The notes under the pieces: model-generated
What the model was told of the DNA's origin: nothing
Seen by the model: the letters and a program-made list of their open reading frames with translations, nothing else
Databases searched by the model: none
Origin: Alphaproteobacteria bacterium
Lineage (GTDB): Bacteria > Pseudomonadota > Alphaproteobacteria > Bin95
Reading direction: 5' to 3'
NCBI GenBank assembly: GCA_022822125.1
Contig: JAJECF010000088.1
Span: 1 to 18,928 of the forward strand
Length of the DNA: 18,928 nt
Program-made: the position numbers and the translations under genes
Shown here: positions 3,686 to 11,334 of the stretch, piece after piece
Numbering within the stretch: position 1 is the first letter of the stretch
Layout of the letters: every line of letters starts with the position of its first letter

Positions 3686-5536
3686 TCATTTTCCGCCCCG
3701 CGACCTGGATAATTCCGTCAACGCCTCCAGAAACGCCCCGCCATAGCGCCGGAGCTTCGCGGCGCCGACGCCCGGCACCTCGGCCATCTCGGCGAGGCTT
3801 GCGGGGCGGCGGTCGAGCATGGCGGCGAGCACGCTGTCGTGGAACACGACGAAGGGCGGCACGTTCTGCTCTTCGGCCAGCCTGCGGCGGAGCGCGCGGA
3901 GCGCCTCGAAGCCGTCCCTGTCCGCGACCGCCGCGCCCCGCTCCCGGCGCGGCCGGGCCGGACGGGCCTCCCGCTTCTCGCGGCGCAACGGCACCTTGCG
4001 CTCGCCGCGCAGCACGGCGCGCGCCTCCGGCCCGAGGCGGAGCACGGTGAAGCTTTCCAGCCGCTCCGCCGCCGCAAGCTCCGCCGCCGTTAACTGCCGC
4101 AGGATCGAGCGCCACTCCGCCGCGCTCCGCTCCCTGCCGACGCCGAAGGTCGGCAGGCGGTCATGCCGGAGCCGCAGGATGCGCTCGGTCTCGCGCCCGC
4201 GCAGCACATCGACGATATGCCCGCTCCCGAAGCGCTGGCCCGTGCGGTAGATGGCGGAGAGCGCCATCTGCGCCGCCTCCGTGCCGTCGAACATCTCGGG
4301 CGGGTCGAGGCAGATATCGCAATTGCCGCAGGGCTCGCAACCGTCGCCGAAATAGCCCAGCAGGATCCGCCGCCGGCAGTTCGCCGCCTCGGCATAGCCG
4401 AGCAGCGCCTCCAGCTTGCCCCGCTCGACGCGCTTCTGGTCCTCCGAAGCCTCCGAGTCCTCGATGAAGCGCCCCAATTGCGCCGCATCGCCCGGGCCGT
4501 AGAGCATCCAGGCTTCGGCCGGCAGGCCGTCGCGCCCGGCCCGGCCGGTCTCCTGGTAATAGGCTTCGAGGCTCTTCGGCAGGTCGAGATGGGCGACGAA
4601 GCGCACATCCGGCTTGTCGATGCCCATGCCGAAGGCGACGGTCGCCACCATCACCGCATCGTCCGAGGCGGCGAAGCGCGCCTGCCGCGCCGCGCGTTCC
4701 TCCGCCTCCAGCCCCGCATGATAGGCAAGCGCCGGAATCCCGGCCCGGTTCAGCTCTTCCGCGACCCTGTCGACCCGCGCGCGCGTCATGCAATAGACGA
4801 TGCCGGCCTCTCCCGGCCGCCCGGCCAGGAAGGCCAGCAATTGGGGCACGCGCTCCCGGCGCGGCCTGACCGTGTAGCGGATGTTCGGCCGGTCGAAGCC
4901 GGAGACGAAGCGCCGCGCTCCTTCCAGCCGGAGCTCGCGTGCGATGTCGGCGCGCGTCTCGGCGTCGGCGGTCGCGGTCAGCGCGATCCGGGGCACGGCC
5001 GGAAAGCGCTCGGCCAGCACGGCGAGGCGCCGGTAGTCCGGGCGGAAGTCGTGGCCCCACTGGCTGACGCAATGCGCCTCGTCTATGGCGAACAGCGCGA
5101 GCGGCGTCCGTTCGAGGGCATCGAGGAAGCCCGGCGCGGCGAAGCGCTCCGGCGCCACATAGACGAGGTCGAGCCGGCCCGCGCCCATCGCCCGCTCGAC
5201 GCGCGCCCGCTCGCGCCCGTCCATCGCCGAGTTCAGCGCCGCCGCGCGCACGCCGTTCTGGGCGAGCGCGGCCACCTGGTCCTGCATCAGCGCGATCAGC
5301 GGCGAGACGACGACCGCCACGCCCGGCCGGACCAGCGCCGGCACCTGGTAGCAGAGCGACTTGCCCGCACCCGTCGGCATCAGCACCAGCGCGTCCTCGC
5401 CCGCGACGACCGCGTCGATGGCCGCGCGCTGATGGCCGCGAAACGCCTCGAAACCGAAGACCCGCCGGAGGATTTCCAGCGGGTCCGGCGGCGGTTGTTC
5501 GCCGCGCGCGGGCAATCCGTTGCTATCGGATGGCAT
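3686..5536 (-). CDS. recQ: ATP-dependent DNA helicase RecQ
   Basis: This 616-aa superfamily 2 helicase has the full RecQ layout. Walker A is MPTGAGKS (53-60), the DEAH box lies in FAIDEAHCVSQWGHDFRPDY (149-168), motif III is LTATA (186-190), and motif VI is QETGRAGRDG (328-337). A zinc site follows, made of C387 plus C403-x2-C406-x2-C409; C400 is an extra cysteine. Next come an RQC winged-helix region (about 415-515), a basic Arg/Lys-rich linker (about 514-534) and a C-terminal HRDC domain (about 540-606) containing EVPGVGAAKLRRYG. RecQ unwinds DNA 3' to 5' in recombination repair and replication-fork restart. ATG 5536 puts the helicase core at the normal distance from the N terminus. It is downstream of the hydrolase gene on the same strand, but a 195-bp gap with strong hairpins probably separates their transcription. 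Confidence 0.96.
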   Translation of the reverse strand: MPSDSNGLPARGEQPPPDPLEILRRVFGFEAFRGHQRAAIDAVVAGEDALVLMPTGAGKSLCYQVPALVRPGVAVVVSPLIALMQDQVAALAQNGVRAAALNSAMDGRERARVERAMGAGRLDLVYVAPERFAAPGFLDALERTPLALFAIDEAHCVSQWGHDFRPDYRRLAVLAERFPAVPRIALTATADAETRADIARELRLEGARRFVSGFDRPNIRYTVRPRRERVPQLLAFLAGRPGEAGIVYCMTRARVDRVAEELNRAGIPALAYHAGLEAEERAARQARFAASDDAVMVATVAFGMGIDKPDVRFVAHLDLPKSLEAYYQETGRAGRDGLPAEAWMLYGPGDAAQLGRFIEDSEASEDQKRVERGKLEALLGYAEAANCRRRILLGYFGDGCEPCGNCDICLDPPEMFDGTEAAQMALSAIYRTGQRFGSGHIVDVLRGRETERILRLRHDRLPTFGVGRERSAAEWRSILRQLTAAELAAAERLESFTVLRLGPEARAVLRGERKVPLRREKREARPARPRRERGAAVADRDGFEALRALRRRLAEEQNVPPFVVFHDSVLAAMLDRRPASLAEMAEVPGVGAAKLRRYGGAFLEALTELSRSRGGK

Positions 5537-7459: not shown

Positions 7460-7467
7460 TTTCGGTA
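7460..7467. repeat. Target-site duplication, left copy (TTTCGGTA)
   Basis: These eight bases directly precede the left terminal inverted repeat and recur directly after the right one at 9906-9913. An 8-bp duplication is typical of IS1595-family transposition. Confidence 0.95.
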
Positions 7468-7490
7468 GGGATTATATACGAAAGTGCCCA
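7468..7490. repeat. IS terminal inverted repeat, left
   Basis: This is the 23-bp left end of the insertion sequence, identical in reverse complement to 9883-9905, with an outer GGG as the terminal bases. Confidence 0.95.
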
Positions 7491-7511
7491 TAGGCGGCAC
7501 TAACTGGACGG

Positions 7512-7733
7512 CTAAATCCAGCCCGCCTCCTCCAGTTCCACCAGAAGAGCGCCCCGGTCCATTGCCACCACGATGCTGGTGCGGCCGCCGCCTTTTGAGG
7601 CAATGCCAAAGACTATTCGCAGCGTCTCATTGCTGTGTGCGACCCAGACGCTTTCGCACTCCAGTTTCAGCGTCTCCGGATTGGAGGCCGGCCCTCGATA
7701 GACTTTCGCGCCATCCCATATCCGGACGCTCAT
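7512..7733 (-). CDS. IS passenger protein of 73 aa, unknown function
   Basis: ATG 7733 overlaps the TGA of the upstream 49-aa gene (ATGA), so the pair is translationally coupled. The product starts MSVRIWDGAKVYRG and ends MDRGALLVELEEAGWI. Between these lie alternating polar/hydrophobic segments (LKLECESVWVAHSNETLRIVF, then RTSIVVAM) that look like a compact mostly-beta protein. No signal peptide, membrane segment or catalytic motif is visible. The stop lies only 22 bases inside the left inverted repeat, so it belongs to the mobile element. I do not recognise the family. Coupling to a very small basic-headed partner is the arrangement of many toxin-antitoxin or regulator/effector pairs, but nothing in the sequence proves that role. 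Confidence 0.65.
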   Translation of the reverse strand: MSVRIWDGAKVYRGPASNPETLKLECESVWVAHSNETLRIVFGIASKGGGRTSIVVAMDRGALLVELEEAGWI

Positions 7734-7879
7734 TGAGCCGGCTTCCGCTTGAGATAGTCCCAATCGTCCTCGGCGCGCGGCGGCGCGGTCACAAGCGCAC
7801 GCAGCACATTCTCCGGGCTGTCGGGTATGGCGTCCGGCTCCGGCTTCTCTACCGGGCGTCCTCGCTTGCGTTCGGTCAT
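7730..7879 (-). CDS. IS passenger protein of 49 aa with AT-hook-like N terminus
   Basis: The frame is open further upstream, but ATG 7879 has a strong GGGAGG about seven bases before it and gives a clean start, MTERKRGRPVEKPEP. KRGRP matches the AT-hook core, which inserts into the DNA minor groove. The rest, PDSPENVLRALVTAPPRAEDDWDYLKRK, is one helix plus an acidic-aromatic tail. Its TGA (7730-7732) overlaps the ATG of the 73-aa gene. The pair is divergent from the retropepsin cassette across about 190 bp containing a palindrome. The likely role is DNA binding or regulation within the element, inferred only from the AT-hook-like motif. It is too short for a secure family call. Confidence 0.6.
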   Translation of the reverse strand: MTERKRGRPVEKPEPDAIPDSPENVLRALVTAPPRAEDDWDYLKRKPAQ

Positions 7880-8015
7880 GGCATGTCCTCCCTGCCGGGC
7901 AGCACGGCATAGCTGATTATGGAAGCAAAGTGCCTTGACTGCATTTGCCGCCCGCCCTTCCAAGCCGGACATCGTGACAGTTGGACTGTGCCGCACTATA
8001 TGGCAGCATGTCAAG

Positions 8016-8038
8016 GATCACTAGCGCCCCTAGTGATC
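8016..8038. promoter_or_regulatory. Operator-like inverted repeat between the divergent IS cassettes
   Basis: GATCACTAG (8016-8024) and CTAGTGATC (8030-8038) are perfect 9-bp arms around the spacer CGCCC. The site lies 35 bp before the start of the 84-aa gene and 137 bp from the start of the 49-aa gene. That is where a repressor would control one or both cassettes. The regulator is unknown; the AT-hook-like 49-aa protein is one candidate. Confidence 0.55.
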
Positions 8039-8072
8039 GGGAATGAGCAACTGACGAGGGAGGCCGCACGCC

Positions 8073-8327
8073 ATGAACACCCCTTTGCTGGGGGAGGAGC
8101 TTTCGTTCTACGACGAGAACAAAGACGATTTCCTCCATAAGCACGCGAATCGGCACCTCCTCATCAAGGGGCGAGCGCTGATCGGCCACTTTTCCACGAT
8201 GGATCAAGCAGTAGGGGAAGGCGTTCGCCAATTCGGGATAGAGCCCTTTCTAGTCCGGCTGGCAGGAACGGATACGCCCGAATTTACTGTCCCGGTGCTT
8301 GCTCTGGGGCTGCCATGCCAATCCTGA
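8073..8327 (+). CDS. IS passenger protein of 84 aa, partner of the retropepsin
   Basis: ATG 8073 has GAGGGAGG about ten bases upstream. The soluble product reads FLHKHANRHLLIKGRALIGHF followed by STMDQAVGEGVRQFGIEPFLV, and then a short tail. The 'hlLIkgr.liGhFsTmdqAv..G...FG..PFLVR' pattern resembles small bacterial proteins I recall being encoded directly upstream of retropepsin-like proteases; that recollection should be checked. It overlaps the next gene by 13 bases (8315-8327), so the two are made together. No catalytic residues are evident. It may be the protease's substrate, chaperone or regulator. Base composition is clearly less GC-rich than the chromosomal genes. Confidence 0.65.
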   Translation: MNTPLLGEELSFYDENKDDFLHKHANRHLLIKGRALIGHFSTMDQAVGEGVRQFGIEPFLVRLAGTDTPEFTVPVLALGLPCQS

Positions 8328-8788
8328 ACTCCAGAATCGAAGTCAAGAATCAGAACGGAGACATTATTCCGGCCCCGGACGCGCTAGTGAGTCTGGGGCC
8401 TGTGCTCCCGGTGACACTTACGTTGTCGGATGAAGTTCAGAAAGTCTATGTCGAACGCGGAGAAAGCCCGCCTGCGGGGGTTGGTGGCTTTGCAATGATC
8501 GATACAGGGGCGACCGCAACATGCATTGACATAAATGCCGCGAATCAGGCGGGGCTTCCTACAGTGGGCACGGCGCGGATGACATCAGCCAGTCACGCCA
8601 ATCAGAATGTTCCCACCTTTGCCGGCAAGATTGTTGGGCCGACGATCAACATCAACGTGGAATCTGGCATGGGAGCGAATCTATCGTCATTCGGAAACAA
8701 CTTGATCGTCCTGCTGGGACGCGACCTCCTGAAATCAGCCGTATTCATCTACAACGGCCCAGACGGTCATTTCTCCATCGCAATCTAA
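8315..8788 (+). CDS. Retropepsin-like single-domain aspartic protease, IS passenger
   Basis: The 157-residue protein has the aspartic-protease signature AMIDTGATATCID, with the DTG at residues 63-65. About 70 residues later comes the hydrophobic-hydrophobic-Gly motif LIVLLGRDLL (130-139), spaced as in retropepsins and bacterial gag-asp-like proteases. Only one DTG is present, so activity would require a homodimer, as in retroviral proteases. There is no signal peptide or membrane anchor, so it should be cytoplasmic. The gene begins inside the end of the 84-aa gene in another frame (13-base overlap) and ends 55 bases from the transposase remnant. GC content is low for this genome, fitting horizontal origin. 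The fold assignment is confident; the physiological target is unknown. Confidence 0.8.
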   Translation: MPILNSRIEVKNQNGDIIPAPDALVSLGPVLPVTLTLSDEVQKVYVERGESPPAGVGGFAMIDTGATATCIDINAANQAGLPTVGTARMTSASHANQNVPTFAGKIVGPTININVESGMGANLSSFGNNLIVLLGRDLLKSAVFIYNGPDGHFSIAI

Positions 8789-8842
8789 GGGAATTCGCTT
8801 CCCCGTTTCGTCGGCGGTCGCGTATATCGAACGCGAAGTTGT

Positions 8843-9819
8843 TCATTGGCACGACCGCGCCCCCGAAGGCAGCCCGTTGTCGGCAATCAAATCCCGGTAG
8901 CGAAGCTGCTTGCCTTCCATGCCGATGGCTACCGACTGCATCATGTCCAGCGTGTCCCGCGGCCGGATGTTGTGGCGGCCGGCGAACTCCCCACATAGCG
9001 GTCAAGGTGCTTCTCACTGAACTTGTGGAAGGTGCCCTGATAGCCGCGTTTCAGCATGGCTCAGAACGACTCCATACCGTCCGTGTGTGCTATCTCCCGC
9101 ACGAACTCCTTAGCACTGTGATTGACGGCCTCATGGCTGTATTCGGGCATTCCGGCATAGGCGCGGGCTTCGTCTGTGTAGAGCGTCGCGCCCGACACCA
9201 CATTCTCCCACACAAAGCCCTGTAGCGCCGTCGCGTCGGTCTGGGAGACGCGGCCAGCGGCAACCTGATTGGTAGCGCGGTCCTTCACGCCCGCGACCGC
9301 AGCCTTGCCGACCGTCCTCCGGCTCGTTAGCTCTTTCCGCTTGGCGTTCGGCATGTTCTTCCGCTTGCCGCCGAAGTAGGTCTCATCCGCTTCTACCGGT
9401 CCACCGAACATGCCGCTCTCCCGCGCCCATGTCTCGCGGATGCGGTGGGCAAGGTGCCAAGCCGTTTTCTGCGTGATGCCTAGGTCGCGGTGCAGCTTCA
9501 TGGACGCCGCGCCTTTCAAGCCTGTCGTCATGATGTAGCTGGCGAGCGCCCAAATCTGGTAACCGAGCTTCGAGGACTGCATGACGGTCCCGGTCTTGAC
9601 CGAAAACCGCTTGCGGCAATCCCGGCAACGGTGAGGCATGGTCTTGTGCGCCGTGCTTTCCTGCACCCGGTGGCTGCCGCAATGCGGGCAGCGGATACCC
9701 TCGGGCCAGCGGGCCTTGATGAACCAAGCCTCGGCGGTCGCGTCCTCGGGGAAAATCCGCATGACCTCGACCAGAGGCATACCCTTGCGGAGGTGCTTGC
9801 CCGGTGCGTTCCTTGCCAT
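8843..9819 (-). pseudogene. IS1595-family transposase, inactivated by nonsense and frameshift
   Basis: It starts at ATG 9819 with GGGAGA upstream. The N-terminal zinc ribbon is C44-x2-C47...C65-x2-C68, and the ISXO2-like DDE domain follows with D145 in EADETYFGGK, D216 in YTDEARAY and E250 in GMESF. Family members continue ESFW; here the Trp codon is TGA (9061-9063). Beyond it the same frame continues MLKRGYQGTFHKFSEKHLDRYVG, and one base is missing near 8988-8992. The next frame then resumes EFAGRHNIRPRDTLDMMQSV to a TGA at 8843-8845. An intact enzyme would have about 325 residues. The truncated 252-aa product keeps all three acidic residues but loses the C-terminal part, so it is probably inactive. 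Confidence 0.93.
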
Positions 9820-9882
9820 AGCCCTGTCTCCCTATTTATGGAAACAGAGTGCCAGAAAACGGGTCAAACGTCAACCCCTAAA

Positions 9883-9905
9883 TGGGCACTTTCGTATATA
9901 ATCCC
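9883..9905. repeat. IS terminal inverted repeat, right
   Basis: This is the 23-bp right end, the exact reverse complement of 7468-7490, and it lies 63 bases upstream of the transposase start. Confidence 0.95.
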
Positions 9906-9913
9906 TTTCGGTA
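9906..9913. repeat. Target-site duplication, right copy (TTTCGGTA)
   Basis: It is identical to 7460-7467 and marks the right boundary of the insertion. The intergenic stretch that follows (9914-10170) contains an open frame without protein-like features and the palindrome upstream of the Fic gene. Confidence 0.95.
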
Positions 9914-10170: not shown

Positions 10171-11334
10171 ATGCAGCGCAGGGAGACCGGCCGATATGAG
10201 AGCGCAAGCGCGGGCGGCGAGCCGGTTCGCGCCTTCGTGCCTGCGCCGCTGCCGCCGGACCCCGCGCTGGTTCTGGACGGCCCCCTGCAGCAGGCGCTGG
10301 AGAGGGCGACGCTCGCCCTCGGGCGGCTCGACGCCGTTTCGATGCTGCTGCCGGACGACACCATTTTCCTCTACGCCTATGTGCGCAAGGAGGCGGTGCT
10401 GTCCTCGCAGATCGAGGGCACGCAGTCCACGCTGTCCGACCTTTTGCGCTTCGAGATGGAGGAGGCGCCCGGCGCTCCGGTCGCGGATGTTGTCGAGGTC
10501 TCCAACTATGTTGCGGCGCTCGACCACGGCCTGCGCCGTCTGGGCGAGGGCTTCCCGCTGAGCAATCGGCTGATCCGCGAGATTCACGCCGTGCTGCTGT
10601 CCCGGGGACGGGGCGGCGGCAAGGCGCCCGGCGAATTCCGCCGCTCACAGAATTGGATCGGCGGCACGCGGCCCGGCAATGCGCAATTCGTGCCGCCGCC
10701 CCACACCGCCGTGCCGGACTGCATGGCGGCGCTCGAACGCTTCTGCCACGCCGATGACGGTCTGCCCTCCCTTGTGCGGGCGGGGCTCGCGCATGTCCAG
10801 TTCGAGACCATCCATCCCTTCCTGGACGGCAATGGGCGCGTCGGGCGGCTGCTCGTCACCCTCCTGCTTTGCCATGCGGGCGCGCTGCGCCAGCCGCTCC
10901 TCTATCTCAGCCTCTACCTGAAGCAGCATCGCAGCCGCTACTACGACCTGCTGAACCGCGTGCGCCTCACCGGCGACTGGGAGGAATGGCTCGCCTTCTT
11001 CCTGGAGGGCGTGCAGGCTACGGCCGAGGGTGCCGTCGCCACCTCCCGCCGCCTGATGGAAACCTTTGCGGCGGACCGGGTTGCGATAGAAGGGAGCGCC
11101 GGGCGGCGCGCCGGCTCGGTCTTGCGCGTGCATGACGCGCTGAAAACGCGACCGATATTGTCGCTGTCCGAAGTCTGCGGGCGCAGCGGGCTGTCCTTCC
11201 CCACCGCCGCCGCCGCCATGCAGACCCTGATCGGACAGGGCATCGCGCGCGAACTGACCGGCCGGCCCCGCAACAGGCTGTTCTGCTACGACCGCTATCT
11301 CTCCATCCTCGCGGAAGGCGCCGAAGCGCCCTGA
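10171..11334 (+). CDS. Fic-family protein (class II, with C-terminal winged-helix/HTH)
   Basis: The 387-aa protein carries the Fic active-site motif HPFLDGNGRVGR (215-226), where His215 is the catalytic base for transferring AMP from ATP to a target hydroxyl. The N-terminal inhibitory helix is visible as SSQIEGTQS (78-86), matching the [S/T]xxxE[G/N] motif of class II Fic proteins. An N-terminal Fic_N-type domain occupies about residues 15-95. The C-terminal 70 residues (SLSEVCGRSGLSFPTAAAAM and the following wing) form a winged-helix-like domain that may bind DNA. The start at ATG 10171 has only a weak ribosome site. No antitoxin gene is adjacent, consistent with built-in inhibition. The protein modified is unknown. 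Confidence 0.92.
   Translation: MQRRETGRYESASAGGEPVRAFVPAPLPPDPALVLDGPLQQALERATLALGRLDAVSMLLPDDTIFLYAYVRKEAVLSSQIEGTQSTLSDLLRFEMEEAPGAPVADVVEVSNYVAALDHGLRRLGEGFPLSNRLIREIHAVLLSRGRGGGKAPGEFRRSQNWIGGTRPGNAQFVPPPHTAVPDCMAALERFCHADDGLPSLVRAGLAHVQFETIHPFLDGNGRVGRLLVTLLLCHAGALRQPLLYLSLYLKQHRSRYYDLLNRVRLTGDWEEWLAFFLEGVQATAEGAVATSRRLMETFAADRVAIEGSAGRRAGSVLRVHDALKTRPILSLSEVCGRSGLSFPTAAAAMQTLIGQGIARELTGRPRNRLFCYDRYLSILAEGAEAP

Follow-up and report, generated by a model that had tools for sequence, protein, structure and literature searches.

Simple insertion sequences (ISs) are usually treated as transposase-only. In the 18,928-nt stretch of alphaproteobacterial DNA analyzed here (the window; contig JAJECF010000088.1 of assembly GCA_022822125.1), a transposase gene shares the space between two inverted repeats with four small genes (p1 to p4), which raises the question of whether the small genes travel as passengers of one mobile element and what such passengers may do. 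The window element is very probably a passenger-carrying IS1595 element ('tIS') that inserted as one 2438-bp unit, with p3-p4 as a recruited cassette. The features of the element, in window positions, are as follows.

7460..7467, no strand: target duplication, left copy, 8 bp, TTTCGGTA
7468..7491, plus strand: left terminal inverted repeat, 24 bp
7512..7733, minus strand: p2, 73 aa, no family match, four relatives besides itself
7730..7879, minus strand: p1, 49 aa, basic, RGRP core, of a family that recurs in related IS1595 elements
8016..8038, no strand: palindrome with 9-bp arms and a 5-nt gap, GATCACTAG-5-CTAGTGATC, between the divergent pairs
8073..8327, plus strand: p3, 84 aa, DUF5678-like family
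8315..8788, plus strand: p4, 157 aa, retropepsin-like aspartic protease, D-T-G motif
8852..9819, minus strand: IS1595 transposase, broken
9882..9905, minus strand: right terminal inverted repeat, 24 bp
9906..9913, no strand: target duplication, right copy, 8 bp, TTTCGGTA

Ends and layout of the element

The 2438-bp element (7468-9905) is bounded by 24-bp inverted repeats that pair with 100% complementarity. The original prediction had described perfect repeats of 23 bp and an 8-bp duplication; the perfection and the duplication stand, and the length is corrected to 24 bp, as an apparent 25th base of the repeat belongs to the target duplication. The ends were assessed against 200 first-order simulations of the window by a search for a 24-bp repeat (6 mismatches at most) with an exact 8-bp duplication and a spacing of 0.5-5 kb. 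The real window has one such structure, with 0 mismatches, versus seven matches in the 200 simulations, one with 5 mismatches and six with 6. The 8-bp duplication surrounds the whole 2438-bp unit and indicates a single insertion.

The transposase is the largest gene of the element and resides at its right-hand end. Its predicted membership of the IS1595 family is borne out by matches to PF12762 (E 3.7e-20, ending at profile position 121 of 153) and NF033547 (E 1e-36), and an N-terminal zinc ribbon is detected (PF12760, E 4.5e-08). According to the passages available of PMC8101967, the IS1595 family includes seven groups and is typified by 8-bp duplications and, in all groups but IS1016, a zinc ribbon. 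The window element has both terminal inverted repeats and the exact 8-bp duplication.

The small open reading frames (ORFs) form two divergent overlapping pairs, as predicted: p1-p2 on the minus strand, which share 4 nt, and p3-p4 on the plus strand, which share 13 nt. Together, p1 to p4 occupy 7512-8788, or 1277 of the 2438 bp, in agreement with the estimate that about half of the element is passenger DNA. The genes without a transposition function between the repeats are p2, p3 and p4, plus p1 if it is cargo. A palindrome does lie between the pairs, as had been pointed out, and is only mildly unusual, with arms as long found in 46 of 2000 simulated 193-bp spacers. It may serve as an operator; its reading as a strong operator was dropped on the basis of these simulations.

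Other copies with the same cargo and different flanks, which the original prediction proposed to look for, were not found, nor was any further element that pairs these repeats with all four genes, or an empty insertion site in a relative. Plasmids gave no match by blastn of the element or by tblastn of p4 and p2. Just to the right of the element, the window carries a gene of the Fic/DOC family (PF13784, PF02661) at 10171-11334 on the plus strand.

The p3-p4 pair

The p4 protein matches the retropepsin-type profiles PF13975 and PF13650 above the cut-off, and PF00077 and TIGR models below it. The Asp and Thr of its motif (D63 and T64) are invariant across 44 aligned sequences, window included. 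The predicted model of p4 has a pLDDT of 88.8, and that of p3 is weaker (78.8). The best solved folds retrieved for p4 by Foldseek are the Rickettsia retropepsin 5c9f followed by Ddi1 (best 5.2e-05, TM 0.46-0.53). The p3 family is DUF5678-like in that 12 of its 52 members match DUF5678 at E 0.01; the window copy does not.

Relatives of p4 occur at 77 sites in genomes of bacteria and archaea from many phyla, a lower bound that rests on one conserved stretch, and in 7 places in viral contigs, for a total of 84 loci; a tblastn search of phages with p4 gave no match. With a profile to which some of these loci contributed, a p3 gene is detected immediately before p4, in the same orientation, in 81 of the 84 loci; tblastn detects p3 in 65 of the 84. 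In two of the three remaining loci, fewer than 300 bases separate p4 from the locus end. The overlap is also common, as the p4 start falls within p3 in 52 of the 53 pairs measured, with start codons chosen by nearness to the aligned start. One locus has a single open frame (L060:3992-4564) that spans the middle of p3 and then most of p4; this frame is possibly a natural p3-p4 fusion, which would hint at physical contact. Compared to the decayed partner at L001, dN/dS is 0.26-0.36 for p4 and 0.12-0.13 for residues 15-84 of p3.

A conserved or defence neighborhood of p3-p4 is unsupported, as the neighbors vary between loci. Among the 141 of 145 neighbor ORFs scanned (four long ORFs were omitted, and L001 and L054 were excluded beforehand), no Pfam family is found in more than three members, and PADLOC families occur in two members each at most. 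Within Alphaproteobacteria the distribution of p4 is patchy, with 3 of 295 genomes in one family and 1 of 11 in one order, counts that include the genomes that led to those groups.

Occurrence of p3-p4 in and out of mobile elements

Most of the 84 p3-p4 loci are ordinary and stand-alone, without a mobile element or the repeats of the window. The original prediction held that the same four genes in an ordinary chromosomal locus devoid of the inverted repeats would speak against cargo. Such loci are found for p3-p4 alone, and L001 has p1 together with p3-p4, all decayed, and is devoid of p2, transposase and repeats. On the other side, two further elements that have repeats and a duplication (L054 and L025) enclose p3-p4, i.e., 2 of 84 loci versus 0.25 on average in simulations. 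In the first repeat scan, runs of N in L050 swamped the output, and only the single matches for the window and L054 were used.

L054, from a Terriglobia metagenome-assembled genome (MAG), is an IS1595 element of 3260 bp in which the transposase is open and p3-p4 is accompanied by a P63C gene; its 8-bp duplication is a run of T, which makes the exact ends less certain. L025, from another Terriglobia MAG, spans 4041 bp (L025:1788-5828), with 17 of 18 repeat bases and 7 of 8 duplication bases matching, and carries p3-p4 along with a Ser/Thr kinase gene and a short ORF that encodes a transposase. This ORF has no NCBIfam match and is 63.5% identical to a plasmid gene annotated as IS1 family; L025 is a probable IS1-type element. 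At L003, a decayed IS1595 transposase accompanies an open p3-p4, and recognizable ends are absent; a methyltransferase-like ORF was noted there by eye and has no NCBIfam match. Beyond the window, L054 and L003, tblastn detected no IS1595 transposase in p3-p4 loci. Since the L054 transposase and p4 are 33% and 29% identical to those of the window, respectively, and the nearest transposase to that of the window (L105, 61% identity) is associated with other cargo, the window and L054 are inferred to have obtained p3-p4 by separate captures and not from one shared ancestor.

The p3-p4 pair is predicted to be a mobile protease-partner module, possibly addiction-like. The p3 protein would be made in step with p4 and act as its partner, whether inhibitor, adaptor or substrate, and the carrier would gain a regulated cytosolic protease. 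A stricter form of this idea, in which p3-p4 and perhaps p1-p2 are addiction or toxin-antitoxin (TA)-like modules whose small first gene restrains a harmful protease and so stabilizes the element and surrounding DNA, is of rather low probability. It would account for the overlapping two-gene layout with a small first gene (52 of 53 pairs), the patchy distribution (3 of 295 genomes in one group and 1 of 11 in another), the neighbors that change between loci and the presence of the pair in elements of two IS families; Tn3 transposons are also known to carry TA pairs (PMC7157771). However, none of p1 to p4 has a TA or PADLOC match, the order and overlap of the genes suit any coupled enzyme and partner, and retropepsins of known role are stress or processing enzymes (PMC12239564).

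The p1 and p2 genes

The p1 protein matches no profile in any library searched, and its RGRP core is presumably AT-hook-like. A p1 profile, built from four p1 sequences and then iterated, detects the family in 11 of 24 complete IS1595 elements (three of which were seeds) versus none of the 713 ORFs in 120 kb of flanking sequence. The p1-family gene is located within about 125 bp of the transposase-distal repeat in 7 of the 11 elements. A p1 profile had matches at E 0.001 in only 2 of the 289 alphaproteobacterial genomes. Eight further p1 regions were fetched: (i) five have no IS1595 transposase within the stretch, (ii) L144 is the L001 locus again, (iii) L143 is a complete element, and (iv) L137 has a transposase piece 1.8 kb away. 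The p1 family looks like a recurrent companion of IS1595 elements, including those with other cargo, that is not exclusive to IS1595. The view that all four genes are unambiguously cargo is too strong for p1, as its family recurs in IS1595 elements with other cargo.

The complete element at L143:3915-7967 combines an N-6 methylase, a type I specificity gene and a p1-family gene. In L105, L123, L154 and L164, small ORFs near the distal end share a YQPxKAEL-like start; they are p1-like at a level that is not significant (E 0.1 for L105) and are excluded from the p1 count. These proteins may be a further companion family or else a p1 branch. A HicB-like reading of the gene that follows p1 in L113 was dropped, as the gene has no Pfam match.

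The four relatives of p2 (77, 77, 87 and 81 aa) all extend past its last residue by a few residues, and no kin of p2 are known outside these four proteins. The p2 profile matched 0 of 11 and 0 of 289 genomes in searches run without a positive control.

Cargo of related IS1595 elements

Searches for related transposases covered seven genomes reached through the loci (7 of 7 matched) and 289 alphaproteobacterial genomes (12 of 289 matched at E 1e-50 or better). Two sets of 20 transposase regions were fetched, of which 9 and 11, respectively, have repeats with duplication; the other 20 were left out. The complete-element set comprises 24 members, window included, each with repeats and a duplication (matching at 6 of 8 bases in L123 and 7 of 8 in L109). 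All 24 have 1201-3498 bp beside the transposase; thus, passengers, which the original prediction described as known for IS1595, are even usual among these relatives. By a Pfam scan that covered 20 of the 55 listed cargo ORFs of at least 90 aa, DNA methyltransferases are present in at least 9 of the 24 elements, with HNH, T5orf172 or specificity domains fused to some of them, and other cargo includes P63C (L054), EamA (L159) and GIY-YIG (L156) proteins. The cargo types are interspersed in the transposase tree, in which good support is confined to 5 of the 19 inner branches, and the window is in none of the well-supported small sets.

Two elements of one genome, L161:1176-5340 (4165 bp) and L163:4401-7568 (3168 bp), have nearly the same transposase and the same methyltransferase start, and offer a chance to see cargo gain or loss. 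This group of IS1595 elements looks like a set of small, modular transposons in which methyltransferases, transporters, P63C proteins and a protease cassette are exchanged next to a recurrent small gene.

Decay of the transposase

The description of the element as complete holds for its ends and fails for its transposase. The transposase frame, open from 9819, is ended at 9061-9063 by a stop that immediately follows the residues ESF, of which the Glu is probably the last residue of the catalytic triad; relatives continue for about 60-75 residues further. Homology can be followed to about 8852 and shifts frame near 8990, as judged by eye. A recoded TGA was rejected, as p3-p4 and nearby long genes (3686-5536, 616 aa; 10171-11334, 387 aa) are open. 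Intact relatives of the transposase occur elsewhere, and the break is decay of the window copy, not a sign of another family. With the transposase broken, the ends are complete but movement of this copy by its own means cannot be assumed.

It is distinctly unlikely that errors of sequencing or assembly account for the transposase breaks and the early p2 end in an element that is intact and active. The record looks metagenomic, with p2 placed on a 32,741-base contig, which would allow for such errors; however, two separate lesions in the transposase and an early p2 end would have to coincide with p3-p4 and nearby long genes that are open, and the transposase genes of relatives in other genomes are often broken too.

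Origin of the element

While p3-p4 is mostly a stand-alone locus, it is extremely improbable that it was already in place, or arrived otherwise, and that IS1595 ends closed round it by chance or later rearrangement, as the exact 8-bp duplication that flanks the two repeats identifies all 2438 bp as a single insertion, and p3-p4 lies between the transposase and the distal repeat like the cargo of other elements.

For the passenger-carrying IS1595 element that is favored here, the following history is proposed. The p3-p4 pair would have been taken up as a ready-made cassette, and an ancestor with a working transposase would have carried p1-p2 and p3-p4 together by IS1595 transposition. The p1 gene may serve the element or lead a passenger operon. 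The transposase of the window copy would then have decayed, while selection may have held p3-p4 open for a time. A broader proposal, put forward as speculation with a limited chance of being correct, is that p3-p4 is an undescribed two-gene module, a retropepsin-type protease checked by a DUF5678-like partner, that spreads between phyla both alone and by repeated IS1595/IS1 capture, with an addiction- or defence-like advantage, and that the p1 family is a hallmark accessory protein of passenger-carrying IS1595 elements.

Comparison with known systems

The literature search found no paper on a DUF5678-retropepsin pair or a p1-like IS1595 companion, and the search for DUF5678 gave one unrelated paper; the founding IS1595 paper (Siguier 2009) and ISfinder were outside the search, so that these cargo types may have been noticed before. 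The passages seen of PMC3942029, PMC11092175 and PMC7371123 hold nothing on such cargo.

ISs with passenger genes are termed 'tIS', with tISCpe8 and MTnSag1/tISSag10 as IS1595-type examples in the passages available of PMC5704250. As described there, these elements share with the window an IS1595 transposase, inverted repeats and passenger genes. They differ in that both are mobilizable, and tISCpe8 carries lincomycin resistance, whereas the window has p1-p2, the DUF5678-like/retropepsin pair and a broken transposase. The IS1595 elements with methyltransferases (e.g., L106, L108, L161 and L166) resemble the window in transposase group, length class and the position of the transposase at one end, and differ in cargo. 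Like the window element, L054 has p3-p4 and an IS1595 transposase between inverted repeats that are flanked by an 8-bp duplication. By contrast, L054 has other repeats, P63C as further cargo, an intact transposase and a duplication that is a run of T.

With bacterial retropepsin-like proteases, p4 has the retropepsin fold and the D-T-G motif in common; it is 13-15% identical to the Rickettsia chains (5c9f). PMC12239564 describes the Rlo retropepsins of Pseudomonas as secreted enzymes linked to osmotic stress, whereas p4 is coupled to a DUF5678-like gene. The p3-p4 pair provides a testable handle on bacterial retropepsins, including the question of why the same pair is found in two IS families. 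Overall, the window element is of a known kind, the passenger-carrying IS, and its new parts are the protease-pair cargo and the recurrent p1 companion.
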